A stretch of DNA of 64,000 nt from Mesodorylaimus sp. YZB2_4 (Eukaryota; Nematoda; Enoplea; Dorylaimida; Dorylaimidae), in the NCBI GenBank assembly GCA_030248295.1, contig JASANH010000254.1:109179-173178 (forward strand), written 5' to 3'. The notes beneath the pieces were generated by a model. It made no database searches. It worked only from the letters and a program-made list of their open reading frames with translations, and was not told the DNA's origin. The position numbers and the translations under genes were made by a program. Position 1 is the stretch's first letter; each line of letters begins with the position of its first letter. Shown here piece by piece: positions 7,133-64,000 of the stretch.

Positions 7133-12657
<5,525 letters not shown>

Positions 12658-15600
12658 ATGGCGACGCCAGGTAAGCAAACTTCCTTCGAATTTTTTCTCG
12701 GAAACAGTTTCCGCAGTTTTCGCGAGCTCGGCCTCGATTTTTCGCGAACAAACCGAGCAAAATTTTCGATTTCGTGCGAGAACTTTCACTGAAATGAATT
12801 TTCGAGTCGTTTCCTTCCGTTTTAGTGATCAGCTCGGTCAAATTCTTCAACCAGCATGGCATCGAGGTCACTTTGACCGAAAACGGTGGCTACGCCGAGA
12901 TCGTTGCCGAGCTCCGTCAGGCCAAGTGTACCGAATCCATGAATTTGGTAGATGAAAACGGGAATGTGTTCCAAACGGGAAAGTGCGACTCGAATGGACA
13001 GGTCAAGTTCAAAGTGCCGATGACAAAGGACACCAAGTTTGGCAATTACTTCGCCGAGTTCAAAGGCCAACGATCCGCCGAGCCATTCAAATACGAGTAT
13101 CGAACGTGTAAGTACAGTGTTTTGTCTGGGATGGGGCCCAGGGTCGACCGTACCAACTTTCTGCCTGTACCTGGGGTGGTACGGACCGTACCGTACACGT
13201 TCGAAACAAATTTCCATCCTGGCAGATTTAAAAATTTTATGTCCAATTTATAAAAAACTTTATCGAAAAAATTCCGTAACGAAAGTGCAATACGTAATAC
13301 GTTCCATACCGAAAAAAATTTTTCGGTTCAGACCGTCAACTTTCTGACTGTGAATTTCAATATGACCCCTATGAAGCAAAAAGTGTACTTCAACGCCAAA
13401 TTATCACACAAATCATACAAAAGTCGGAACGGCTGTATCGGCGTACTGTCAGCGCCGTACCCACACTGAACCACCCACTGGTATGGTCGACCCTGGCATG
13501 GGACTCACAGAAGTTGGACCTAAGAGGGGAAGCAGACGTGATGTCCGAACGAGCGAGTCCCCAATCCTCTTTTCGAAGTAAACGAGGACTGGGAGCTCGC
13601 TTCTCAGGGCCTCAGGATCCCAAGGGTGGGACTCGCTTGCATTCCTTCGAATCTTCAATTTTGTAGTCAATCCCTTTATCGAAAATTTTCAGGCGGTGAG
13701 GGCGAGTCCGCTGGTTGCCCAGACGGCACACAATGTTTTGTGACCAAGGACGGTGCAGCGTGCAAAATCGACGCCGACACATGCGCAAACCAGCACGGCA
13801 AGGCAACCTCCATCTGCGGGGAAGGTACGAAAGCTGATTCTCAGTGCGAATCGATCGCGACCAACAACTACGACAAAGCCTTGGCCGAGGAAACGGGAGC
13901 CTGCTCTCAACAAGGTGAGTCAGAACTTCATGGGGCATCTTCTTGCGAAAACATGCGTGTTTCAGGGAAAACTCCACACATGACGTACGATGGAGAATTG
14001 GTCAGGTTCAACGAGGCCGTTAAGGTCACCAACAGCACTGCGCCCCCCATGGCCAACTGTCCACCCGGTGGCCCCGGCGACGACGCCGACCTGAACTGTA
14101 AATGGCTCGTCAACAATAAAGAAGTGTCGGCGGAGATCAGTGCGGGAAGATGTGAAAGTGGCAAGAAAGTACCTTTCCCGAAACAGTTATTCGAAGAACC
14201 ATGCGTCGGCACAGTCGAGTGCAAATTCACCAAAGGCAGCAAAAAGGCCCGCACGCTCGCTCATTTCGTCAATACTGGTGAGTGCTGCCTGAACTCCCAG
14301 CGGACTGCAATAATCCTCTTTGCTTCTTCAGGAGGCGGCAAGCTGGAGCCCAAGGTGACCCCGAGCACGGACGGCAAGACTGAGAGTCAGGTCAAGTGGG
14401 AGAAGATCCCGAAGCCCCCTCCTGAAATCCGTGATTGTAAATGCGAAACGACGACCCCGAGCGGAAAGAAGCTGACGGTAGGAGACGGAGGCCCTGGCGG
14501 ACTGTCATCCCGTCACGCCCCGATCTTTTCAGGGCGACAAATTCAAACCCCAGGAGGCCGGACAGTACGATGGCCGGTGCGTGTGCACGCACAGTGGTCG
14601 GGGGAAAAACATCGAGATCCCCTACTTTGGCAGGCACGTGTCGAAGGGCGGTAAGACTTACGATCGATCACGCAGACTCAGTACAGATATCCTGATTTCA
14701 GGCGACGGGTTGCCAGGGTCGACCCGCAAACCGGGACCCCGACAAATGACGGAAAAAGAGTGGATAGGCATGTGGGCTGGCATCAGTTGTCTTCTCTTGT
14801 TTATCCTCATTGTGGGCATCGTGGTCATTTGGAGAAAGCGCCGTCGTCAGCGTGGCAGTCGACGTCGTAGTCGGCGTAGTGGCCAGTACGGTGTGTGTAA
14901 GCATATGCTTTAAATTAAATCAATTAGAAATTTCAAAGACTTTTTGCAGCGAAACGTGAATCGGACAAAGCGGGGGTTAAGACAGCCAGTTGGACGCCGA
15001 AGATCGTGCCAAAGGGAAAGATTGCGACGCGGGCGATCGAATCGCAGGGCAACAGCAGCGTCAAACCGAAGCCGTCACCCGCGAAAGAAAGGTTCCTCGA
15101 TCCGATGGCTGGAAAGCGAAGCGACGACAAAGTGAGCATGGCTCCTAACCACTACTTCAGGGCCATCGACAACTACACGCTGGACAAATTATTGAAACTA
15201 CTCCAAGATTGCTTGGCTGCGAAAACTGAGTCCGAGATGGAGGCTCTGATTAAGGGCGTCAACGAAGAGATCGTGGAGAAGGGCGATGTGGTCGAAGTGA
15301 AGATGGCCGGGAAGCAGCCCGTCCAAGTCCGAAAATCAACTCAAGTCGGCGGGTTGGACATGAACGAAATGCTCAGCTTCTTCAAGGCCAGTCAGCTGTT
15401 CATGGGCTCGATTCCATCCGTCGCCGATTTGTTGAAGTGGCTCAAGGAGCTCCTGGACAAGCAGGTGAGGTCTCTTGTATTCCGAGATATTGTCAGGCTT
15501 ATTTTCTGGTCCTATTTCAGGTCGGCGTGATCGTGATCACTGGCGCGCTGCCGAAGAACCATCCGCTGATTCCGAAGGATGAAAACTCGGGACCAATCAC

Positions 15601-16386
15601 AGTGGGCACACCCGAAGACCATCTGACCCTGAAGTGGTTGTTGCTTGACGAAAAGGACGGGGTTCCGGCTGGCACGCTGAGCGTGCGCGAAGTGGGTGAC
15701 AGCGCCCCTTTGGGCAATCTGGTTGGTTTTTTTGTGATTTTGTGCCATAGACTCGTAGGATCGACGGTTCCTTTGCAGACCAAGATCCACTTGGTCTACT
15801 TGCCGATCTTGCCCGACCCGAACAACGCGAATGATGTGAGGAAGAACGCCTCCAAGATCGACCAGGCCGTCTACTACATGTGCAAGCAGACCGAAAGCAG
15901 CTTGCCAAACACTGCCCTGGTGTGCCCAGACGGACTGGTGTACGCTCCGACGGACGCCCTGGCCATCATCAACTACGAGGCCGGCATGAAGACCAACTGG
16001 GAGGCCATCAATCTGAAAGACGTGACGAGGAAAGTGAACAGGGCGCGCATGGGGGCCTTCTCGAAGACTCAGCTGGGCGTGAAGATGGTGTTCCGCATGA
16101 TCCACTTGGCCACTGCGACTCTGTTCGATTTGTACAAGGGAAGCACGAGTCGAAGTATGTTTTTAGTTTGAACCCCCCCCCCCCCCCCGCTCCCCATCGT
16201 TTCTCCTGACTCCTCGTCTCCCTTTCAGGCAGGACCAGCAGCGGGACGGTGCCTGAGCAGCCAGGGACGGGCGTGGCGAAGGCGTGCGACGAGTACAGTG
16301 GCCTGGAAGGTTTGTCTCAACGACCGTCGACGAGTGGTTATCAGGTCAAGAAGGGCAGCAGTTGGAAATTCTGGGGAAAACGTTGA
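12658..16386 (+). CDS. Receptor A: Cys-rich ectodomain, TM, diverged PTP-like domain
   Basis: Eleven exons: 12658-12670, 12826-13107, 13693-13914, 13966-14277, 14332-14477, 14533-14650, 14702-14890, 14950-15464, 15521-15721, 15779-16154 and 16229-16386. All have GT-AG ends and the frame stays open for 843 residues. Residues 1-384 are ectodomain modules with many Cys; 386-408 are a transmembrane helix (WAGISCLLLFILIVGIVV); 409-423 are strongly basic, placing the C-terminus inside. Residues about 490-780 look like a remote PTP domain: FKASQLFMGSIPSVADLLKW then VGVIVITG (compare FIATQGP and VIVMLT), LPDP at the WPD position, VCPDGLVYA at the HCSAGxGR position, and a final GAFSKTQLG (compare the QTxxQYxF element). 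Cys715 is present but the P-loop Arg is Tyr721, so catalysis is unlikely. No cleavable signal peptide is visible after MATP, so an upstream exon or a reverse signal anchor is possible. Paralogues lie at 57242-59055 and 61653-64000. Confidence 0.8.
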
Positions 16387-39637: not shown

Positions 39638-42600
39638 TTACTGAGGCACTAACGGTTGCGGCAACGCATTTGGCAAGCCACCCGGATTCGGAGCTGGACG
39701 ATTCGGCAATCTTGGTATCTGATTCATGGGCGTCGGTGATGGCCCTGTACGCTGTACTGGCGGCACTGGCGCCGTTCGCGTTGGATTCATGCTCGTGCCG
39801 CCCAAACGACCCGTGCTCGCCGACGATGGTATACCATTACTGGCACTGCTATGCGGCCTAAAACGCCACAACATTTAAGTCCACGTTCAGCATGAAAGCC
39901 AGCCACTATCCAAAACTGCGGGGGTCGTCTTATGGGACCCCCTGGCTAAGCGGCCAAGCGGGTATTCTGTATAGACACTGCTCATTTTAGGCAACAGCGG
40001 CCGCTCTTTGACCAGACCCCCCTTAGACTTGGGCCAAGTCCAGTCCCCACCTACCTAAGCAAGACCTCATTCACGAACCAGCCAAATCCAAGACACTCTG
40101 CCTGAAAAATGGGACGCTATCCCAGGACCGACCTCCAGTGCCCGACTGCCAGACATCCAGCCAGAAAAATGGGGCGCTATGACCCACGTGAGGCCTCCTC
40201 TATATAATGTATATTGCTGCCCCCAAACTGTGTGCACGCGCCATTGCATGCACTCGAGGCTTAGTTAGGCTAAGCAGGGTTCATTACTCACCTGGGCGGC
40301 ATGTAACTATCGAACATATCCCCGCCTCCAATCGGTGCCGGCAACGGGGCCGACACGGTCGACGTATTAATATCGCCAATTATACGCAAAGCCTCTCGAG
40401 TGGCCTGGTACATACGAAGCATCTCTTCGCGTCGCCTCGCCTCCGTTTGACTTTCTTCCATCAGCGTATCCTGCAAATTCAAATTTCCATGTCCCCACAC
40501 CAGATGCCTGAACCCACTGCCACAAAGTCAAGCTTGTGCACGTGCGCCAGAGAAGGCCTACTCTGGAAGACGGGAAGGACGCCAAATTAGAAATAGTCTG
40601 GTACTCCACATTATTGACTAACCACAACACGACTCGATTCCAGCCTCCCTTCCAACCATTTTTCAGCAGCACAATACACTGGTGCAGATTCGCTTAACTC
40701 AAATCAGGGCGATGTGAGGGACATGCCTCCACATTTCTCACCTCGCCCGCCACCAAAAGGCCCCTCCCTCCTCTTCCACACTTACTTGTCGATCAACCGG
40801 TCAATCGATCAACCAGTCCACTGATCAATCGATCAACTAGACCATTGATCAATCGATCAACTGGGCCATTGATCAATCGATCAACTGGACCATTGATCAA
40901 TCGATCAACTAGACCATTGATCAATCGATCAACTGGACCATTGATCAATCGATCAACTGGACCATTGATCAATCGATCAACTGGACCATTGATCAATCGA
41001 TCAACTGGACCATTGATCAATCGATCAACTGGACCATTGATCAATCGATCAACTGGACCATTGATCAATCGATCAACTGGACCATTGATCAATCGATCAA
41101 CTGGACCATTGATCAATCGATCAACTGGACCATTGATCAATCGATCAACTGGACCATTGATCAATCGATCAGCTGGTCCACTGATCAATCGATCAACCAG
41201 TCCACTGATCAATCGATCAACCAGTCCACTGATCAATCGATCAACCAGTCCACTGATCAATCGATCAACCAGTCCACTGATCAATCGATCAACCAGTCCG
41301 CTGATCAATCGATCAACCGGTCCACCGATCAATCACCCGCCACCGAAAGGCCCTCCCGCCCCATCTTACTTACTTGACTTCCCGCTTGATACAATTGCGC
41401 CAGCAATTCATTGCGTATAAACTCGTCCACCTACAACATCCAACATCCATACTAGCTCCAGACCCACTCCCCCCACTTACATCATTGACCATCAAACACA
41501 TGATGGCCTTTGGCACCATATCCCGAATGGTCTTCGTCACAATCCTCATATACGAGTCGGTCAAATTTCGTATAGTCTCCACTTGTCGCTCCAATTGAGG
41601 GTCCAAACTCGTCGCAGCGTCCATATCCTTTAAAAGACAATATCCCGCCATTTTCGTAATTTGAATTCTCCGGCGGAAAGGCTGTATTTCCCAACTTTTC
41701 ACCATAAACATGCCCTTGTTCTCTCTGAACCCACTATCCTAGACTCCAAATGCTTCACTATCAGAGTCTACAGTAGGCACACAGTGATGCACAGGGCCCC
41801 ATGACAAATGTCTTACCCCCGCCCCTCTCATTTCCCAACATACCCCATCAACATCGGCCTTGGCCTCTTTCTCCGGATACACACCAGCCCGCAAAAAGCT
41901 CGCCTTCCACGCGTCCACGTCGTCTTGAGTTTGCGCCGACAATTCCAACTGTTTATAATCCTTGTAAACGTTCCTGGAAATAACAAAAATCAATCATAAA
42001 ATTTCAACTAGAATCTATTTAAAACTAACACTTCTACTGTACTATTGCCGCTACTATACCGAGTAAGCACAAACTTCAATATCGATTATTCCCCAACATA
42101 TTCGATCGACTGATGGATTTCAGCCTGATCGATCAAACCGATCAATCAATCCATCGATCAGGCAATACACGGATCAAGTGATCAATAAACCGATCAATCA
42201 ATTCATCGATCGGTCAGTCGATCAGGGATCTTGCGCTTACTCGATAGTTCCAACACATCTACACGACTACTCATGCAAATGCCACTTGCACAGCATCGTT
42301 CACTCGGTGCTCAATCGAGAAGGCACATCGAAAACTTACTTCCTATGCGCGGCATATTCAAGCAGCAGAAAAAGCAGAGGCTAAGCTCAAACACACGCAC
42401 CCAAAGAAACAGCATTTTTCAAACTTCCCGCCAAACAATCAAGAAAAAACCATCTTTTCACAAAATCCACTTACTTGCCATCCGGATAGAACAAAGCAAA
42501 TTTATGCGAACGGGACATGAAGCCAGCTTCCACATCACGCAATTTCAATCCATCTAACGGCATCATATATTTCTTTTCTTTTTCCTAAAAATTTCATCAA

Positions 42601-49696: not shown

Positions 49697-52600
49697 ATGA
49701 TGAGAAACGGTGGATGTGAAATGAATAGTTGGACATTGCTCCCTGATAATTTATTATTATCTCTTTTCTCATATTTGAATTCGAAAGACTTGGTTGCTGT
49801 GTCTGGAGTTTGTTGGCATTGGGCCAAAGTGTCCAGAGATAATTGGCTGTGGAAAAGGTAAGAAATTTGTTACGGTTTTTTGCTTGACGCTTGATTTACG
49901 CGAAGAGAACTTCACTAATTTTCCCGCAATTTTTTCAAATTTGAATTTCTGACAGAACAATAATTTCTTCCTTATTTGTGGCAGTTGTTTCCGTAGAGAT
50001 GACCGGCGGCTCTAATATCGACCTTCATCACTGATTTTCCGCGTTAAGAAGGGTGATCGCCGCGAAATTTCGATAGTGGGTTTTCAGGTGTGCTGGAGAA
50101 AATAGTACATATCACTGGTTTTTTAAAATTCGATACTTTCCAGAAAGTATATTTCCCGATCTTCTGAACCCAGAGTTTATGCCAGGCAGGAAATTTGGAA
50201 TGATCAGGGTGTCTGGAGTCTAAAAGTGCCGGAAAGCGGAAATTTTCGAACTAAAATCAGGGTAATTGGAAGACTGCATTTCGAATCACCCGCCTTTTCT
50301 ATGTGCCTGCTGATCATGCTGGAAGTTAGTAAATCAGTTAAAATATTCATTAATCACTCCCATTTCAGCTTATCGGACCTCACCGTACTTGCACGCATTC
50401 CCGCTATCACCTTACCATTCGCATCCAGTCTCCTTCCCTGGCCAGTAGCGTTCGTTTCGGGATCGCCCCTCCCGAACCCGATCCCGATAAAAAGTTTTCG
50501 GAATTGACTGTTGTGGAGATGTGTGAAGGAGGGGAAGGGGAGAGGAAGGGAGTGTTCTATGAGGGTAAGCTGGAGAAACTTTGGCGGATGATGAAATTGG
50601 TAAAGTATTGGGAGGGACTTGTTTGCTAATTGGTGACTAATTATATGCTTTTTTACTTGCATGATTTTGAATGCAGTCATAAATACTGCGCAAAAAAGTT
50701 CTCGGCTCTATATTTTTTCTGGCAACTTGAGGTGGGCTGTAAGTTACCTAAATCAAATTGAAAGTGAAAAAATAACACTCTAAAAATCCCGATCCCGATG
50801 CCGGCCGGGATTGAGCGAGTCCCGATCCCGAACGAACGCTACTGCCCAGTGATCTCCTTATCAGTGCTGTAACTGTTCCCCATCAACGGTCAGCCTCAAC
50901 ATCGCTGACTGGGTATCCAAGGTGGTGTTGACCCCCCCTGGAAGAAGATCTAACCCCCCTCCCCGCAGACGAAGTCAGCGATGTTGGTCAGCCTCCCACA
51001 CCATCCGCGCTTGTTATCAGTCTCCTTCCCCGACCACTGATACCATTATGATTGCCCCTGTTGGTCTCCATCAATGGTCAGTCCCTTATCAGCCTCCCAC
51101 ATCATCCGCACTTATCCGGCAGCGGTTCGTCATTCGTCTCTCCGTATTGCTTTGGAGCCAGTGGCTGGACTCGTCCCGGGTTCGATCCCCGGTGATGGAG
51201 GTTGGTTTGCGAACCAGAAACCCTCGCTGACCTTGCACGCCAGGCCGTGGGTGACTCACCTGGTATCGTCAAGGTGCTTCGAGCGAGGAGACCAAAGCCA
51301 AAGGAGGGAACAGTCTCGGCTGTCCAGCACCGACAGGGTTTACGGCCCGCCGCCATCGGCCGAGGAAGTCGGTGTCCTGTCCAGGATACCCTCGCGGGGA
51401 GGTGCTCCTAGTGGAGACACGCAGAGGGGACGCTGCTGTGTGTGCCGGTCCCCGCACAGCCCTGCTTAGAAGGTTTGACTGCTGGCCGGCTACAGGCAAC
51501 ACGGACTTCGCCCCACAAAAATTAAAGAAATCCGGACTTATCCTCCCTTATCACCTTGTGTCAGTCCACTACAGTATTCGTATCAGTGCCCACTTCCCCT
51601 CGCCGCGGGTTGGCCATCCGCTTATCACTTACCTGTTTCTCCCTTTTCAGACGCCTTTGCATCGATTTCAAGCTCAGCTCGCAAACAAAGCTCTCAGGCA
51701 TCGAAGGGGGCGCAGTTTGGTTGAGCGAGTACAGACGTCTGGTGGACGAGTGTCCAGTGGTCGAGAGCGAGACCCTGCGCTATCACCAGGATGAAGTATT
51801 GCACGTCACGTTCAGCACCGATGGATCCATGTTCGCTACGTCTTCCAAAGATTGTACTTTGAAAGTGAGCAGTGTCACGTTTCGGGATTGTCGAAATCAG
51901 TGGCAAGTGACCACTGGTCACTGATACTGGTGCGAAATGCTCTGCAGCTGACCACTGGTGAAAGTTAGCAGAGCAGTGGCTCGTTTGGTATGGGCTTGCG
52001 TGGGGATAGTCAAAATCAGTTGCCTTGTGTGTATTGTTCTGCAGCTGACCACTGGTCACTGCAGTAGGGTCAGCAGTGGTCACTGTTTTCGTAACTGTGT
52101 TTCGCCTCTGGAGAAGGTAGTGTATGGCTGCTCGATACGCACCCACTAGGCGAGGCAGAAACCCGTCATGTTGATGTTTCTGTCTCCCACGACAAGGAGG
52201 CGTGCCTGGTGTGGTCCTTCGCTGTCTGGGCTATGCAGCCCAGTGCACTGTTGGGCAGAAGGATGAGTGGCCAGCTATTAGGTACTCTGCAGGGGGTGAC
52301 CACTGGTCGCTGCAGTGCAGTAGGGTCACACATCGCCTGTCATGCCAGTTCATAAAAGTCAGTGCACAGCACAGTCATTGCTAGACTCGCAATCATGCCC
52401 GAACATCCTCACTGGCATCGCATCCTGGCATACCGCACAGCACGGGAGGGAGGGAGGGAAGGAAAGTCTGTACACTCATGAGTGCGCATCTGCTGCTTAG
52501 TGTACATACAGTAAAATATGAGGGACTGATGTGAGCTTTGGTTGCCTGTATTCCTTGTCTTCTGCAGATGCCCACTGGCTGGCGACTTTGAATGCGGGTT

Positions 52601-55600
52601 AAATTGATGGTACATTGGGCAGAACATTTCGGCGCTCGTGTTTTTCATGCTGCTTCTATTTCTTGATCCAAATCAGACAAGTAACTGTTTTCTTGAAATT
52701 AAAGATGTAATTTCTTTTTTCAGATCTGGTCCACTTCTTATCCATGCCGCCTTTTGCACGATCTAGATCTCGAGCAGATGTTTCATTGGAAATACACACA
52801 ATTTTCTCAGTTCAATTGCGACGATTCGTTGATATTGGTGTCAGGCGTGCACGTGGGACCTAATAATACCTCGGGCGAAATTGCCGTCTTCGAACTTAAA
52901 GGTAAGCCGAATACAGTAGGACGCTTAAGTGACCTGAAGCTGAAACCGACTTTTACCAACAGGGCAGGTAATGTGTCATTTTTTGTAGTATGTCGATGAG
53001 AAATCATTGCCATACTGTACGAATGGGCAGGGTGAGCAAATCGCTTGTAGGGAAATGATTTCCAGGACATAATAGTGACCTGAAGCTGAAACTGACTTTT
53101 ACCGGCAGGGCAGGTGATGTGGCTTTTTTGGTAATGCATGTCCAACGAGGCATCATTGCCGTACGGATGGGTGGGGCAGGGTGAGCGAATCGCCTGTGGG
53201 GTAACGATTTGACACATTACTTGTTGGTAAAAGTTGGTTTCAGATTGGGGATGGAGCATTTGTTGATGTGACCGATTTATGGTACCATTGGTTGTAGATG
53301 ACGAATTGGAATTTCGAAGTCGAGTAGTGAACAAGCCGTACGACGTGTTCGGGTGTTGGTACGATGTCGATCACGTGATCAGTGGCGAATTGCATTGGAT
53401 CACGCACTTGTCATCCACGTCCGATATTTATCTGTGCGCAGCCTCGCAAGAAATCGAATCGGAAAAGAAAGGCGTTATGACTCGATTGTTCAAGTGGGTT
53501 GGAGAAAAAAGTTTTTAGGCGTGCTTACTAGTCCAGTTATGTAGTGCATACTGTAATGGGTCATGGGTGGTGGGGGAAAACTAGGAGGTCCAAGGCCTAT
53601 CACGATTGATATTGATCAGGGTGGCTGGCTGACTTAAAATGAGGAATTCCAAGGTATTCTTGCCTTATCACATTAAATGGTGATAAGGAATTTGACCCGA
53701 AAGGACCCGTTCGATCAGCTTTTGATCATGCCTTATCATAAATCGTTGTGATACGGATTTGTGGCCTTGTCGATGATGATACTCTCACTGGCTTGAACAG
53801 CATGTGATAAGGATTTTTATCGCATCGATTCGAGAACTGGTGATAAGGATGCCGGGCTTATCACGGATTAGCTGATTGGTTTATCGACTGATAAGCAGGC
53901 TGTCATGATTAATACTGATCGAGTCGTGATAAGATATTGACCTAGTGCTCGAAGAATCCTTATCACCTCGTGAGTATGTTGATATAAAGTGTCAAAAAAA
54001 TGAAAATGCAAAAAATGTGTGAGTCTAACTGAGATTTGAACTGGATCTTAAAGCTGATTTCACTTTTTTATGGTCACTCTTTTTAGGTTCTTCAATCGCA
54101 ACGCGAGTACAGTGCATATGGCCTTGGTGAGTTGTCACGTTTCGCCTTGGCTTCGATACGCTGTGGAAATGACTGAGAAATTGGCGGCAGCTGAGAAGGC
54201 TGGCAAGGAATTGGAATTGGATATCGACGAGCTGTCGTTCGAGAATTGGGAGAAGTCTGCTCAACCGTCGACAAGCGGGGCGCAAGCCATGCCAGGTATG
54301 CCGTGCTTGGTTGGACACCTGCTCACGGCCTAGTGTGGATTAGAGAGCCAGGCACAGAGAAGTGATAAGGTATCACCTGAGGATAAGGCTGCCTCTTCTT
54401 ATCACTGTGAGACAGTGATCGCCGTTACGATAAGCCTCCACGTGATAAGGGCGTGGGAAGTATTCGAAGGGGAGTGGGTCTTTTACGAACTGATAAGTGA
54501 TCGGCGACAGTTCTGATAAGGATATCACCTGGTTGGGAAAGCAGTGATGAGGAAGTGGTTATCGCCTACTGTGGGTTCATGATGGATCAATAATGTGATC
54601 ATAAACTGGCAGGATATGCGGACAGTCCATCGTGACACAAAAGGTGATACTGTCTGATCGTGATGTGCGGGGCGTATCATACAGTGTCCTCGATCAGCCT
54701 TATCACTGAATTATGCTGCACTGATACGACTGCAGTAATTTAATGAGGTGATATGAGGCTGGATGATCGAGCGATGATAGGAAAGCTGTAATGCTCAATA
54801 TATATGCAAAAACACTTACCATGAGCGGGAATCGAACCCGCGTGGTCCAGCGCTTTAGCACTTTGACCACCACTGACGGTTGTGCATTTCAGATCGTCTG
54901 CTCATCTTTTGTACGGGCTCATTGACGTATACACCTCATCAAGTGGGCATTAAATTGTTACGCGGTCGATCGATCGATGATTTGCTCAGTGTGGGAGTGA
55001 TGCCCCCCGAACGAATGCAGGCCGTCATGGAAAGAATGCGAGCTCATCGAGAATCGATCGAAAATGGTGAGCCTGAAGAGGTGGCTGATGAGGAAGCGAT
55101 GGACGCTGGCCAGCAGGATGCCCCCGACGAGGATCCGGTGGACGAGGAGAATATGAATTGGCAAGAAATAATGGAGAAATTCGATTTTACTGATCATTTT
55201 ATCGAAATGCACGGTCACATAATTGGAATGGCATTGAGTCGGGATCAGAGGTATTTGTTCGTCAATGTGAGACCGTGGCCCGATGGTTGTGTTATCAGCG
55301 ACCCCTTGGAACCACCTCCCATCGCTCAACAGATCGAGGTGCGGGTGGTGGACTTGGAGACGTTGTCGTTGTTGGATATTCGATACACGGCGCACAAGGG
55401 ATTCACGCCTAATGATGAATGCTTTTTTATATTTTTGGACGCCTGCCATCAGTATGTGGCCAGGTGAGGAGGCGAGCCAATCTTGCAGGAACAGGTGTGT
55501 GAAGTGTGATTGAGCTGGTGTTAGTACGAACAGTGGTGATAATATATCGCTGATAGGGCGGCTGTGATAAGCAGACAGGCTTATCAGGTGGCAAACAGGT

Positions 55601-56043
55601 AAATGTGTGATATGCAGACAGTGGTATCGCTAACCTGTACCGTAGGCAGGAAGTCTTATCAGGTGATAAGCAGGCAGTATAAACCAGTGATAAGCAGGTG
55701 TTGTTTCTAACGGCCAGCGCGAGGGCAGTGGTAAACAGTCCAGCTAGCAGCGCTATGTTGGATGTTTCGAGGTCAGTGACAGATGGGCAGGTTTGAGTGA
55801 TGAGATGTACAAGTATTTGTTGGTTTCAGTGGTTCCGAGGATTCGCACGGGTACGTTTGGGATCGTGATTATGGATGCTTGCTGGCCAAGCTGTCCCACG
55901 CCAATGTGGTCAATTCGGTGGCCTTCCATCCCAAGGATTCGTCCCTGCTGCTCTCGGCATCCGATGATCATACGATCAAGGTCTGGCGATCGAGAGCCTT
56001 CATTCGAGGACTGGCCAAACGTTCGGGCAATGCGAGGGTCTAG
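49697..56043 (+). CDS. FBXW5: F-box/WD40 ubiquitin-ligase adaptor
   Basis: Seven exons: 49697-49857, 51651-51864, 52724-52901, 53298-53493, 54087-54295, 54893-55463 and 55830-56043, encoding 580 residues (human 566). The F-box is residues about 12-52 (LLPDNLLLSLFSYLNSKDLV, SGVCWHW). WD blocks include DEVLHVTFSTDGSMFATSSKD, WKYTQFSQFNCDDSLILVSGV, VVNKPYDVFGCW, IFCTGSLTYTPHQVGIK, EMHGHIIGMALSRDQRYLFVN, TPNDECFFIFLD, HGYVWDRDYG and LSASDDHTIKVW. FBXW5 recruits substrates to SCF and CUL4-DDB1 ligases. A second Met follows the first directly. An acidic insertion (GEPEEVADEEAMDAG) lies between the PHQVGIK and HGHIIGM blocks. Introns 1, 4, 5 and 6 are crowded with GATA-type motifs. Confidence 0.95.
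51180..51500 (+). repeat. Dispersed repeat in FBXW5 intron 1, inverted partner 60530-60830
   Basis: GTGATGGAGGTTGGTTTGCG, CCTTGCACGCCAGGCCGTGG, AGTCGGTGTCCTGTCCAGGA, CAGAGGGGACGCTGCTGTGT and AAGGTTTGACTGCTGGC match the reverse complement of 60530-60830. Confidence 0.85.
52928..53248. repeat. Tandem duplication plus inverted third fragment
   Basis: 52928-53065 and 53076-53210 share AGTGACCTGAAGCTGAAAC, GACTTTTACC, CAGGGCAGGT and GGGCAGGGTGAGC. At 53212-53248 the beginning of the unit returns in reverse orientation (ATTACTTGTTGGTAAAAGT). It lies in FBXW5 intron 3. Confidence 0.8.
53664..55694. promoter_or_regulatory. Dense cluster of TGATAAG/CTTATCA motifs
   Basis: Twenty exact matches to TGATAAG on either strand fall in introns 4, 5 and 6 of FBXW5, for example at 53664, 53681, 53732, 53805, 53841, 53857, 53889, 53927, 53959, 54363, 54398, 54443, 54491, 54514, 54699, 55565, 55580, 55655, 55664 and 55688. 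Four more are in intron 1 (50857, 51085, 51547, 51621). TGATAAG is the high-affinity GATA-factor site. Confidence 0.6.
54824..54885 (-). repeat. tRNA-like insertion next to an FBXW5 acceptor
   Basis: Minus strand GTGGTGGTCAAAGTGC (A-box-like) and CGCGGGTTCGATTCCCGCTC (B box and T-arm). It ends only a few bases before the splice acceptor at 54892. Confidence 0.5.
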
Positions 56044-57241
56044 GATGGTACTGGTGCTATGTCGGGGTCTGGTCAGTCAGTCGATGATGCTGATTTTATA
56101 GGAACTACAGGATGCGTTGGATGTGCTGATTGATTGAAACGAGGCCATGGGGCCTGGTCAGCGCAACGTAGAGATGCCGGGTTCATGCCTGTACTTTCAC
56201 TGTACTGCTGTCGGTGCCATGATTTTCTAGCCACATGATGCCTATTGTGGGTCTGGCGTGTCCGTGGCTCGGCTACGATGTAATGAAATCCATGCTTGTG
56301 TGCTGAGTTCGCAGGTGCTCTACGCACGCAAGTGGCAGCCCAGGGGGAGGGTTGGTCATACGTTACCGATTAGGTGTCGAAGTATACAGTACGGGCGAGT
56401 AGGGGAGAGTACTCGGGCGGTGGGGCATGCCCTGTTTGCTTCGCACAGAGCACTCTGCAGCAGGTTGCATAGCTCACGATCAGACAGTGATCTGGCGCCC
56501 GCATTTGAGCTGGAAAAAGCAATGAGAGCTGGTGGAGAATCTTACCTGGAAGACCTGTCGGGGACAGGGCGACCGTGGCCCCTTTAGCGAGTGCCCTGGA
56601 GTTGACCAGCTATGGAAGTCTTTCAGGGACCTCGTTTCACCCGAGCATACTGTAGGAGGCTCCAAGATATTCCGACGTCATATCCCGCCTAGATCTGCAA
56701 AGCAACGACGGACTTGCGAGGCCTCGATGTGGGTGTGTGGAAGATGGAGGCCTGCGCCGATCGGAACTGGGTCAGTCTGAGAGTAAAATTGGCGCAACGC
56801 AATCTCTGATTTCAATGTGCCCATGAAAATGCGTATGGCTGGTGGGGCGCGTACTTATCGAGCGCTCATTTCGCTTTGACCCGCAGTCTTGCGTGGACGA
56901 GTGGTCGCTGAGCCTGGTCACCCTGCTTTTCGAGCGATGCGCCGACCGCCTTAGCAGCCCCTGCCGACGAAAAAGCTGGATCCAGGATTGGTCAGCAAGG
57001 AAGGGCGACAAAACTTGCGACCATGTCCAACCCATCCACCCTGCCCGTAGTCCCATTCTCAGTCTGATTGTGACTTTGCACAGCTGGACGTCAGGCGTCC
57101 ATTGAGGACACAGTCTAGGCCACACACAGGACACGTGCTAGTATTTCAAATCTTACGTGCTCACATGTTCGAGCAGAGATGGCCATCAGAACATGCAGCC
57201 ATGGTTAGTCATCGAGCAGTTGCACACACGTCATCATCTGA
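56044..57241. other. Intergenic
   Basis: No supported gene. 56891-57005 contains a segment repeated at 60320-60460 (TGGTCACCCT, AGCGATGCGCCGACCGCCT). Confidence 0.6.
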
Positions 57242-59055
57242 TCACACCTGATCACCACCCATCACCTTGTCGCCCAACCTTCTCAGTTCCCGTATCGGCT
57301 TCGTCCACGACTGGCCACGTTCTTTCGGCACACGCGGGCGTTTGGTGAACAGCGGGAATTTCTTCACGCTCGACTTCACGCTCGACATCGTGCTCGACGC
57401 CACGCTTGGCCACAACTTCGGCCCAGTCTGATGCACCACTTCGCCTCCAGCTGGTCCTGGAAAGGAGACCACGGGTCAGGGACAAGTCAAAGGGAAATCG
57501 GACCAACTCACCTCCCCTCAAGCACGCGTCGAACAGCTCGCGCAGAGTCCCGAGCATCAGCCACTTCATGTTGAAGACCTTGATTTCGCCCATCTTTTTC
57601 ACCGAGAAGGCTCCCACGCGCGATTTGCCGACCTTGTCCATCATGTCGTTCAGATTCATTGCCGACCACTTGTTGTGCAGGCAGGCCTGGTAGTTGAGGA
57701 TGGTCACGGCGTCCGTCGGAGCGTAGACCAGCCCGTCTCGGCACAGCAGGGCCACATTCGGGCGTTGGCGATCGGCTTGATTGGCCATGCAGTAGACGGC
57801 GTGGTCGATCTTCTTGGCGTTCTTCAGGACGTCAGTCTCCCTCGAAGGATCGGGCAGGTGCTTCATGTACAGAATGTCGACCTGGAAAGAAACAGTCAAT
57901 CCTGGGATTCTGACTTGAAAAACTCACAAATACCTCGGTTCCGCCCTGAGAGAACTCCGTGCTGAAGTCCATGGCCAGCTTGGGGACACTTGACCTCGGG
58001 GTTCTGCTAGCTGTCGATCACTTCGATGACGTCGTTCACCCTGGCCGGTTTTCCATCGTACGAGATGTGGGGAGTCTTTCCTGAAACACGAAATCCGTTT
58101 TGACACAAAATGGTTAAAAAAATTCTGACCCACCTTTTCCAGAGCGGGATCCCGTTTCCTCAGCCCAGGCGTTGTCGTAGTCGTTGTTCGCATTCGAATG
58201 GCACAAGGAATCATCTCCTTTGGTCGCTCCGCCACAGATTTCCGTTTCCGAGGCCTTGCCGTGTTGGTTTTCGCAGGTCTTGACGTCGATCTCGCACGTC
58301 ACCCCGTTCTTGGTCACGTAGTCGGCGCACCCGGCGGTCTCGTTCTTGCCACCTGAAACAAATTTCATGATGGCCCCTCATCAAAATTGGAGGAAATCAC
58401 CTATGATCGTTCCTGAGACAGAGGGTCTAAACTTTGATTTGCACCCTGGAAGTCCAGATTCATCGCCCTTGTGTGAAAGATTCAGTTTTTCCACTACTCT
58501 ACACCATGGATACACTGTAATAGTGTATCCATGCTCTACACCCTACTAGCCGATGGACCACTACTCAGGTCGACGGTCTCCCAGGCCCAGCCTCTGTGAG
58601 TCCCATCCCAGACAAAGCACTCTACTTACAGGTCCGGTACTCGTACTTGAAGGGTTTCGACACTTGGCCGTTGTACTTGGCGTAGTACTTGTTGAACTTG
58701 GTGTCGCTCGTCATTGCCAGATTGAACGTGGCCCGACCATCCGAGTCTCACTTTTCCGTTTGGACGGCTTTGCCGTCTTCATCGACCAGATCCATGGACG
58801 TGGTGCACTTGGCCACATCGAGGTTCGCGACGATTTTGGCGACGCCACCGTCTTCGGTCAGGCTGTTCTTGATGCCGTGCCGGTTGTGGAACGTGACGGA
58901 CTTGATCTCTGAAAGGGAAGATGTCGGCTTTAAAAGGTGTTCGGGTGGAACTTCTCGCATGTAATCACAAAATTTGTTCGATTTTCCGCTGAAAATCGAG
59001 GCTAAACTCGAGAAAACTGCAAAAACTGCAGAAAACTCTCACCTGGCCACGATAT
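57242..59055 (-). pseudogene. Receptor B: decayed paralogue of receptors A and C
   Basis: Exons by alignment with receptor A: 59043-59055, 58630-58908, 58134-58352, 57934-58080, 57512-57881 and 57242-57456. The start codon is ATA where A has ATG (59053-59055). A conserved Cys codon is TGA (58748-58750), and TAG interrupts the third module (about 58007-58009). The exon at 57934-58080 joins the start of ectodomain module 3 to the middle of the cytoplasmic domain in another frame. Module 4, the transmembrane helix and the first half of the PTP-like domain are therefore deleted. The remaining 3' part is open: VDILYMKHLPDP, LLCRDGLVYAPTDAV and RVGAFSVKKMG match A, and a basic Ser/Lys-rich tail follows. 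Splice sites are still intact, so decay looks recent. Confidence 0.85.
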
Positions 59056-61652: not shown

Positions 61653-64000
61653 CTATTTTGGGAGAAACACGAAGCTGCAAAACGTGTTCATACTCTCCGC
61701 CATCTGCTTCACGTTGGTAACCAGCTCGAGCTCGGTCTCCAGGATGAGACGGTACAGATCTTTGACCAGCTCGAAGCCCAGCTTCCCGCGCGACATGGCC
61801 CCGTAGCGAGACTCGTTCACGAACTTGATGATTGCTCGCGGGTTCACCTTGCCGTAGTGCGCGAAGGCTTGCAGATCGATGAAGATGACCGCGTTGGCTG
61901 CCGAGTACGACAATCCATCGTCGCACAGGAACATCGTGGCGGGCAGCTTGCGGTCGAATTGCTTGGCTTGGTACCTGGCCACCTGGTCCACCTTGTCCGC
62001 GTTCATCTGCACATTCTCCTCTTTCTTCGCATTCGGCTTGAACGGCATCAGGAGCACGTGGATCTGAAACGAGCAGTCGTTGCCCCCGGCCCCCCGTCAA
62101 AAGGACAATGCCCTACCTCGTGGTCTGCACCAGACGACTTGACCGGTCGATGTTTTCGCCCTGTCTTTCCATGGTACAGAGCCACCTTGCCGATCTTGAA
62201 GTCGAAGTTGTCGTCGAAAAAGCGCCACAAGAGCATCACGCTCTTCCCAGTTCCGCTTTCGATTTCTGCATCCTTGCCCACTTTCTTCGGGTACAACGGA
62301 TGGCTCTTCGGCAGATCCTTCCAAGTGATGTCGACCACACCCACCTGAAAAGTCCATGCTGCCAGAGAGAACTTGGGAGAACAGCCAGCTCACCTTTTTC
62401 TGCATCATGGCCAGCAGGAGGTGGTACATGGCCCTCTCATTGGGCAATTCCCCGACCAGCACGGGATCCCCGAACAAGTTGACCGTCTCGTTCAGGTTCA
62501 GGGGCACCTTCTCGCCGTCATCGTGCACCACTACTCGAGTCGACATCCTCACGTCGACCATGCCACCCATGGCTGCTAGCATCTTCACGAGCCCACTCTT
62601 CGAATCATCGATCCAGCCATCGAACATCTTCACCAAATCGCTCGTGGGAAAGTTCAGCCCGAACTTGTCCTCGTTCTGCAGGTTTACGGGCAGCCACAGG
62701 TCCGAACTTTCTCGCACGTAGTGCTGGGCCAGGTGCTGGATGGCATCGCGAGTTGTCTTCTTGTACCTGACCAGGGTCCGGCGGAGCATTTTGCGCCGCT
62801 CCTTTTCTTGCTTTTCTTGTTCCGCCTTCTCGTTCTCTCGCCTTTCCTTCTCACGCTGCTCCCGCTCTTGCTTTTCCTTCTCCTCCTTCTCTCGCCTCAG
62901 CCTGGCTGACTTTTCCGCCAGTTGCTTCAAGGCTGGAAAGAAAACATTGTTTTCGTGCCGAGTGTGCCGACTGCACTGCTTACCAGTCTCACGGCGTTGG
63001 TTGACGACTAAAACGCCGATGACGACGCCAACGATGATGAAGAAGACCACGCCCCCGACACAGCCTCCGATGATGATGGTTCTGATGGGGAGAGGTGGCT
63101 CGGCTGAAAAAACTGGCCTGGAACGAGGATACAAAACACGCAATGATGTCTTACTGAAGTTGCCTGGGAGACGTCCGATCGGGCCACCAGGAGAGTCGTA
63201 GGAGCCCCATTGCAAGTAGTCGAACTGATTGCGCGGGAACCCGCTGATGATGGGGATGATGCACTTGCCGTGGTACACGCCAGGCTCGTCGGGCTGGAAC
63301 GTGCGACTCTGCAAAAGGAGCTTCTATCCTAGCACCAGTGACAGAGCCAACGAACACTGGCTTACTTTGGTCTTCTTGCCCTTCGGGGACGTCGTCTCGC
63401 AGTCGGGCTCGCCGCCGAACTCGGGTGGAAAAGGGAAGTTCAGATCCCAGCTGACCTTCTCATCGGTCTTGCCGTCACTGCTTTTGGTCGGAGTGACCTT
63501 CATTTCGCCATCTGCAATGACAGAGTTAGCTTCCTGGGGGATTCAAAGTTTCGTCTTACCAGGCAGGGCGAGGAGACGGAGGAGCAGGCGGGCATCGTAA
63601 TTTGGTTTGTTCAGCATGCACTGCAACGTGCCCATGTTCACTTTGGCGAAGAACTCTGCGGGCAACGTGATTGGATGGCCGAGACCGCATTGGGCAAAGT
63701 TCACCTGCACCACTTTTCCATCGAACGAGAACGTGCAGTTGACGGCGGCATCGTTGGAGCGGCTGTTGGGCGCGCACACCAAGGAGACCCGGTTCGCAGT
63801 GGAGTTGGCCCTGACGACTTCGTTGAACCTGGCAAGATCGTCGGGGTACTTGAACTGCGGAGTTTTCCCTGAAATAGAGGCCACCTTTGCTCACAGGGGA
63901 CCAAACTACAGTCTGCTATTTGTACATACCGCTCGACGAACACCCGGGATTTTCTTCAGCCCAAGCGTTTTTGTAGTCCTTTCTGGCACCCGACTCGCAC
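61653..64000 (-). CDS. Receptor C: Cys ectodomain, TM, coiled coil, PTP-like domain (5' cut)
   Basis: Eight exons are visible, the first cut by the window end: 63930-64000, 63560-63868, 63366-63511, 63155-63308, 62984-63103, 62394-62932, 62117-62344 and 61653-62063. Intron phases equal those of receptor A. Ectodomain matches include CESGARKDYKNAWAEENPGC and KTPQFKYPDDLARFNEVV. The TM helix is TIIIGGCVGGVVFFIIVGVVIGVLV. It is followed by a highly charged segment (KEEKEKQEREQREKERRENE core) predicted to be a coiled coil, absent from A. The cytoplasmic domain has VGVVDITWKDLPKSHPLYPKK, FLCDDGLSYSAANAV at the P-loop position and ESRYGAMSRGKLG at the end. The P-loop Cys is present, the Arg position is Tyr, and the WPD-like PD is replaced (KPNA). 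The stop at 61653 is read without the extra 3' exon of A, which is less certain. Confidence 0.8.

Follow-up and report, generated by a model that had tools for sequence, protein, structure and literature searches.

A multi-copy family of nematode receptors with a degenerate, probably catalytically dead phosphatase domain

The window analysed here, a 64,000-nucleotide stretch that ends with its contig (C205:109179-173178, in a searched genome of 145 Mb and 1067 contigs), carries between positions 12658 and 16386 a gene for a receptor, here receptor A, whose cytoplasmic part recalls a protein tyrosine phosphatase (PTP) in the order of its motifs. A preliminary description, made from the sequence alone, took it for a lineage-specific receptor pseudophosphatase present as three copies. 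The locus thus raises two questions: is the cytoplasmic domain a PTP by descent and, if so, what would a receptor do with it?

The gene limits given in that description proved exact to the base, with the ATG at 12658 and the TGA at 16384-16386. The receptor A model, built from the DNA and from conservation against paralogs, lies on the + strand and has 849 residues in 11 exons, joined by 10 GT-AG introns of 45-585 bp, with no internal stop (Table 1). The proposed layout was borne out as well: 19 Cys in residues 1-390, a TM helix at residues 387-408, a basic stop-transfer segment and the cytoplasmic domain (the segment just after the helix, ahead of that domain, reads RKRRRQRGSRRRSRRS). This order, i.e., ectodomain, single TM and cytoplasmic PTP-family domain, is that of receptor-type PTPs. 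All of the motifs reported earlier are present, as follows: FKASQ at residue 574, SVADLLKW, VGVIVIT at 602, LPDP at 683, VCPDG, and GAFSKTQLG at 764. The VCPDG Cys is Cys721 in the present model and 715 in the earlier numbering.

An exon 9 end at 15691 was dropped for 15733, the longer end being common to the paralogs and to L061, a receptor locus described below. The model begins MATPVISSVKF; no signal peptide was found in it and no convincing exon upstream. Candidate signal peptides at 11458 and 11908 were rejected, and the latter, worked by hand, would join out of frame. The 13 bases of exon 1 also occur in four fetched paralogous loci, L011-L014, with a different donor in L012. The first exon is putative and may be wrong.

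Table 1. Features of the window, with positions counted from its first nucleotide.
Feature	Position	Strand	Remarks
Receptor A, putative exon 1 (MATP..)	12658..12670	+	ATGGCGACGCCAG then GTAAGC; without signal peptide
Receptor A, exon 2	12826..13107	+	First ectodomain module
Receptor A, exon 3	13693..13914	+	Cys-rich module; similar module in L061
Receptor A, exon 4	13966..14277	+	Ectodomain module
Receptor A, exon 5	14332..14477	+	Ectodomain module
Receptor A, exon 6	14533..14650	+	Membrane-proximal ectodomain
Receptor A, exon 7	14702..14896	+	Single TM helix (residues 387-408) and basic stop-transfer segment
Receptor A, exon 8	14950..15464	+	Juxtamembrane region and start of PTP-like domain (FKASQ...SVADLLKWLKELLDKQ)
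Receptor A, exon 9	15521..15733	+	VGVIVIT strand and central PTP-like segment
Receptor A, exon 10	15779..16154	+	LPDP (WPD position), degenerate P-loop VCPDGLVYA, GAFSKTQLG (Q-loop position)
Receptor A, exon 11	16229..16386	+	C-terminal tail and stop
Open frame, 241 residues	21334-22059	-	C-terminal half Cys-rich
Open frame, 462 residues	26431-27819	-	TM-like stretch and Cys-rich part
24-base tandem repeat array	40681-41424		+ strand open as repeated INRSTGPL peptide
FBXW5 gene	51600-56100	+	Several exons
Copy B, decayed relative	57513..58936	-	Stops in exon 2 and exon 4 counterparts
Copy B, exon-10 piece	57513-57881	-	Loop LCRDGLVYA
Copy C, second subfamily, different from A	61692..64000	-	Cut by contig end, which is the window end
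Copy C, exon 10	61692-62063	-	Loop LCDDGLSYS
Copy C, exon 9	62117-62344	-	
Copy C, end of exon 8	62394-62633	-	
Copy C, coiled-coil-like stretch	62600-62900	-	Long and charged
Copy C, TM	within 62979-63095	-	
Copy C, ectodomain	contig end to about 63330	-	

Three copies are present in the 64 kb, as had been claimed, but in unequal states: A is intact, B has decayed and C runs off the contig. A TM exon was looked for in copy B and not found. Between its TM and its domain, copy C has a coiled-coil-like stretch, REKEEKEKQEREQREKERRENEK, of a kind that A lacks. Across the genome, an exon-9/10 query matches 37 places and an ectodomain query 67; these are counts by exon, with some copies near-identical, and not gene counts. 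Several copies are more than 96% identical over long stretches and are perhaps haplotypes. Among the paralogous loci L011-L017, divergence from A is mosaic: exon 7 of A differs strongly from that of L011-L013 (dN about 0.62) and is close to that of L016 and L017, and exon 8 follows the same pattern. Such a mosaic suggests that exons have been exchanged, or converted, between the copies.

Of the other features of the window, the FBXW5 gene (F-box/WD repeat protein 5) was recognised and then confirmed by protein search, and it marks the DNA as metazoan; its best match, at 61%, is to a short environmental contig, and its best named matches, at about 45%, are from arthropods. The two open frames on the - strand have Pfam matches only below cut-off.

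Direct comparison does not identify the cytoplasmic domain. Pfam scans of exons, spliced domains and ectodomains of the A, B and C types gave no PTP match in the window family (weak matches to bMG3, CA109-like, SoxE_N and others lay below cut-off and were set aside), and a PDB search with a profile of nine window-type members gave none either. That is, window-type domains match neither PF00102 (Pfam Y_phosphatase) nor PTP structures by sequence. Structure prediction with a fold search, the check proposed in the preliminary description, was applied to contiguous window translations only. AlphaFold gave a pLDDT of 39 for the exon 9-10 translation and of 51 for exon 10 alone. The PTP core runs strand-helix-strand-loop-three-helix, and the exon 10 model, itself of low confidence, has an element order compatible with it. 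Fold searches of the low-confidence models (Foldseek, VIA) returned no significant match: PTPN22 ranked top in one search at an E of 0.65, which is not significant, and no PTP stood among the best 50 matches listed in either VIA search.

The link to PTPs is made by other receptors of the same genome. A PF00102 search of the genome yielded 164 exon matches, some of them just downstream of matches to the window ectodomain. These PF00102 matches, which partly form clusters or near-identical pairs, amount to a large expansion of PTPs in this animal. One locus, L061 (C22:60700-63700), encodes a Cys-rich ectodomain module, a TM and a domain with WPDHTVP and FHCSAGMQRS; the domain matches PF00102 at 3.6e-21 and PTPRS in the PDB at 1.3e-14, with 223 PDB sequences at E up to 1e-3. 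At 9 of 14 PTP exons of this C22 type, counted by eye, a window-ectodomain match lies 1.2-2.0 kb upstream on the same strand (C22 twice, C312, C147 twice, C859, C112, C31 and C331; E 2.3e-14 to 5.1e-4), and at 5 there is none. The shared, homologous ectodomain is accompanied by a shared TM-domain order, as read in L061, and by shared intron positions. By eye, the intron that separates exons 8 and 9 of A is matched in L061 by one of identical position and phase, and the next one, between exons 9 and 10, has the same phase and nearly the same position; the exon after it begins 11 residues upstream of the PD of LPD in A and 9 residues upstream of that of WPD in L061, where the donor of this second intron was inferred.

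The C22-type and window-type receptors differ in the catalytic motifs. The loops were read in two of the 14 C22-type exons, L061 and L062, and both keep WPD and HCSAGxQRS; L061 matches PF00102, whereas the window type does not. Two other PTP exons, L063 and L064, are known here without their ectodomains. The usual Q-loop motif is QTxxQ. By eye, this form is gone from L061-L064 and no clear KNRY is seen in L061, and for that reason we term these relatives HCX5R-bearing and not active. At the Q-loop position the C22 type has GAMSxxxL, similar to the GAFSxxxLG of the window type.

Profile searches tie the two types together. An exon-10 search seeded from A, over 7083 open frames, gave a 30-row window-type profile, with no row from L061, that matches the L061 PTP exon at 9e-7; with L061 added, the profile reached two canonical PTP loci at 3.7e-4 and 0.018. 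Neither exon 8 nor exon 9, profiled by itself, led to a PTP. From nine window-type exon-10 sequences, selected from the fetched loci, a fixed profile was built; it scores the four HCX5R exons, L061-L064, between 24.2 and 36.6 bits (E from 1.3e-9 to 9.1e-6, scaled to a nominal 7000 sequences), against a best of 11.0 bits (E 0.11) among 8000 shuffles and 4 reversals. In hhalign, the window-type set aligns with the HCX5R set at 97.7% (E 1.4e-12), with a score of 73.5, where 100 column shuffles reached at most 18.8; over the longer domain, the alignment with L061 covers 216 columns at 97.0% (E 1.1e-10) and places Cys on Cys. Single-sequence searches of the whole genome agree in both directions: a C22 exon finds window copy C (E 2.5e-6), and copy C finds the 14 C22-type places (E 2.4e-7 to 1.4e-4). 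The copy C search returned 71 rows, 48 of them judged to lie outside the window type, and 43 of the 48 overlap C22-exon matches or the compared PF00102 matches, the latter a subset of positions judged relevant, in which 26 of the 48 lie.

With the fixed exon-10 profile, eight canonical PTP sequences of the same genome score like shuffles (0.6-5.0 bits), and hhalign of the window family against the canonical PTPs gives 22%. On these comparisons, the window-family domain is distant from ordinary PTPs and tied to them through intermediate receptors. Its PTP descent is almost certain on the sequence evidence, and it is through these receptors that the earlier reading, a PTP-like domain with its P-loop at the predicted Cys, finds support. 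At E 1e-3, neither receptor A nor L061 found a homolog in a protein collection. Animal proteins are present in it, as the FBXW5 control attests, and the L061 query also raised no ordinary PTP, although its PTP part matches so many PDB sequences; the missing homologs therefore say little. That the family is lineage-specific, as originally claimed, is plausible.

Can the domain still be an enzyme? The loop reads C-x-D-G-x-x-Y in 19 of 23 readable window-type rows, across three subfamilies; the exceptions are L012 (frameshifted there), L025, one L018 row and L030. Given the copies that are nearly identical over long stretches, the rows are not independent. The catalytic Arg of the CX5R position occurs in 0 of the 22 in-frame rows, Tyr standing in its place, and an HCX5R loop is not found. 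At the WPD position, types A and B have LPDP, with the Asp kept, and type C has KPNA, NPNW or FPNP, with the Asp lost. The usual Q-loop is gone by eye. Of the 125 columns of the nine-row exon-10 alignment, 18 do not vary, and four of these, Cys, Asp, Gly and Tyr, fall within the 8-residue loop (Fisher P 0.015). By eye, the subfamilies share no second conserved Cys in this exon. PTP descent together with the absence of the Arg from every in-frame row supports the designation receptor pseudophosphatase, and the window-type domain is very probably catalytically dead. The shared Tyr-for-Arg loop is most simply read as one change followed by multiplication.

We propose that receptor A is a type-I-like receptor whose cytoplasmic part is a degenerate PTP domain, derived by common descent with the HCX5R-bearing receptors. 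Because an acidic residue lies in the phosphate pocket and the Arg is gone, neither catalysis nor tight phosphate binding is expected; with neither left, the domain would most likely offer a phosphorylation-independent protein-binding surface. This dead domain would act in docking, as PTPRK D2 does, and ligand binding by the ectodomain would be coupled to recruiting or sequestering the HCX5R-bearing relatives and their substrates, or to pairing with them. Precedents are found in the available portions of two reports: phosphorylation is not needed for the D2 pseudophosphatase domain of PTPRK to bind Afadin (PMC9640194), and PTPRU, whose D1 is inactive, binds substrates of its active relatives and is proposed to compete with them (PMC7320164). 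PTP descent, lost catalysis and a non-catalytic role of the receptor A domain, taken jointly, make a likely account. Docking or partnership with the HCX5R-bearing relatives is the most likely form of that role, and we put it forward with middling confidence.

A different non-catalytic role would be that of a decoy or substrate trap, in which the pocket of the dead domain still captures phosphotyrosine, so that the domain competes for substrate with the HCX5R-bearing relatives, as proposed for PTPRU. The Cys is kept, the WPD-position Asp persists in copy A (LPDP), and in the available part of the PTPRU report the binding of active relatives' substrates offers a precedent (PMC7320164). The pocket itself argues otherwise, having lost the Arg and gained an Asp within the loop; copy C, moreover, is without the WPD Asp (KPNA), and the usual Q-loop is absent by eye. 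We consider the decoy unlikely. Slightly more doubtful still is the idea that the clustered, fast-evolving Cys-rich repertoire comprises a phosphatase-bearing set and a dead C-x-D-G-x-x-Y set acting as opposing partners. If true, it would amount to a recognition system made from receptor phosphatases, analogous to activating/inhibitory receptor pairs elsewhere.

Estimates of dN/dS, which are simple Nei-Gojobori counts on small pieces, bear on whether the receptors are maintained at all. For receptor A against six paralogous loci, some of which are without certain exons, the ectodomain gives 0.24-0.52, and the cytoplasmic exons, against the same six, 0.50-0.96. Exon 10 gives 0.34-0.77 within subfamilies (six pairs, of which the four of subfamily C span 0.34-0.77) and 0.95-0.98 between subfamilies (two pairs). 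Among the HCX5R exons it is 0.46 for L061-L062 and 0.51 for L061-L063, and L063-L064 is saturated. These values agree with a cytoplasmic part that evolves fast or under relaxed constraint while its loop is maintained.

They could also be read as a cluster in decay, its receptors being relics on the way to pseudogenes and copy A merely a young one. Stops, frameshifts or missing exons in copy B and in several paralogous loci, and the exon-10 ratios near 1 between subfamilies, would agree with decay. Against it, A is intact across 849 codons and 10 introns, the ectodomain ratios are 0.24-0.52 and those of exon 10 in four pairs of subfamily C 0.34-0.77, and the same unusual loop is kept in three subfamilies; decay is thus improbable as the explanation. 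That conserved loop could in turn suggest that the modified Cys loop has a new chemistry, such as another substrate or a redox switch, in place of none, since all nine aligned rows have the same Cys, Asp, Gly and Tyr in it. By eye, the subfamilies share no further conserved Cys in exon 10, in contrast to PTPRU with its backdoor disulphide, and no candidate substrate is suggested, so we regard new chemistry as slightly more improbable than decay. That the domain is no PTP and its motif order a coincidence is scarcely credible: the missing direct profile match and the lack of a significant fold match for low-confidence models would suit that view, but the profile and reciprocal searches with their shuffle controls, and the ectodomain-TM-domain layout common to the HCX5R-bearing receptors, contradict it.

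The reading we prefer, a dead PTP-derived domain used for docking, can be set beside known systems. IA-2 and phogrin (PTPRN, PTPRN2) are receptors with a single inactive PTP domain and have a loop Asp at the same position (CSDGAGR); IA-2 keeps the catalytic Arg and is located in secretory granules. The window family differs from them in the Arg-to-Tyr change, in its degenerate Q-loop and WPD, and in its many copies. To our knowledge, receptor pseudophosphatases are single genes or second domains. PTPRU, as far as the available part of its report goes, is alike in having an ectodomain, one TM helix, an inactive membrane-proximal PTP domain with the Cys kept, and active paralogs of the same layout; it differs in being one human gene with tandem domains and with changes at WPD (WPE), in the pTyr loop and at one loop residue (PMC7320164). 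In the window family it is the Arg itself that has become Tyr, the model has one domain, the copies are many and clustered, and there is no direct profile match. The D2 domains of receptor PTPs such as PTPRK, in what is available of that report, are likewise dead PTP-family domains able to dock without phosphorylation (PMC9640194). In those receptors an active D1 precedes D2 on one chain, whereas in the window model the dead domain is the sole one and the HCX5R domains are in other genes.

A literature search, among the matches listed and in the available parts of the reviews PMC9464862 and PMC8269279, brought up no comparable receptor pseudophosphatase expansion. Receptor pseudophosphatases as such are known; what is apparently new is a multi-copy branch whose Arg-to-Tyr loop is maintained through its subfamilies and which coexists with similarly organised receptors, the Arg being retained in those whose loops were read. 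How an enzyme turned into a signalling scaffold could here be traced inside one genome. In addition, as this PTP-derived domain is missed by Pfam, by the PDB profile search and by the large protein search alike, similar receptors may be overlooked elsewhere.
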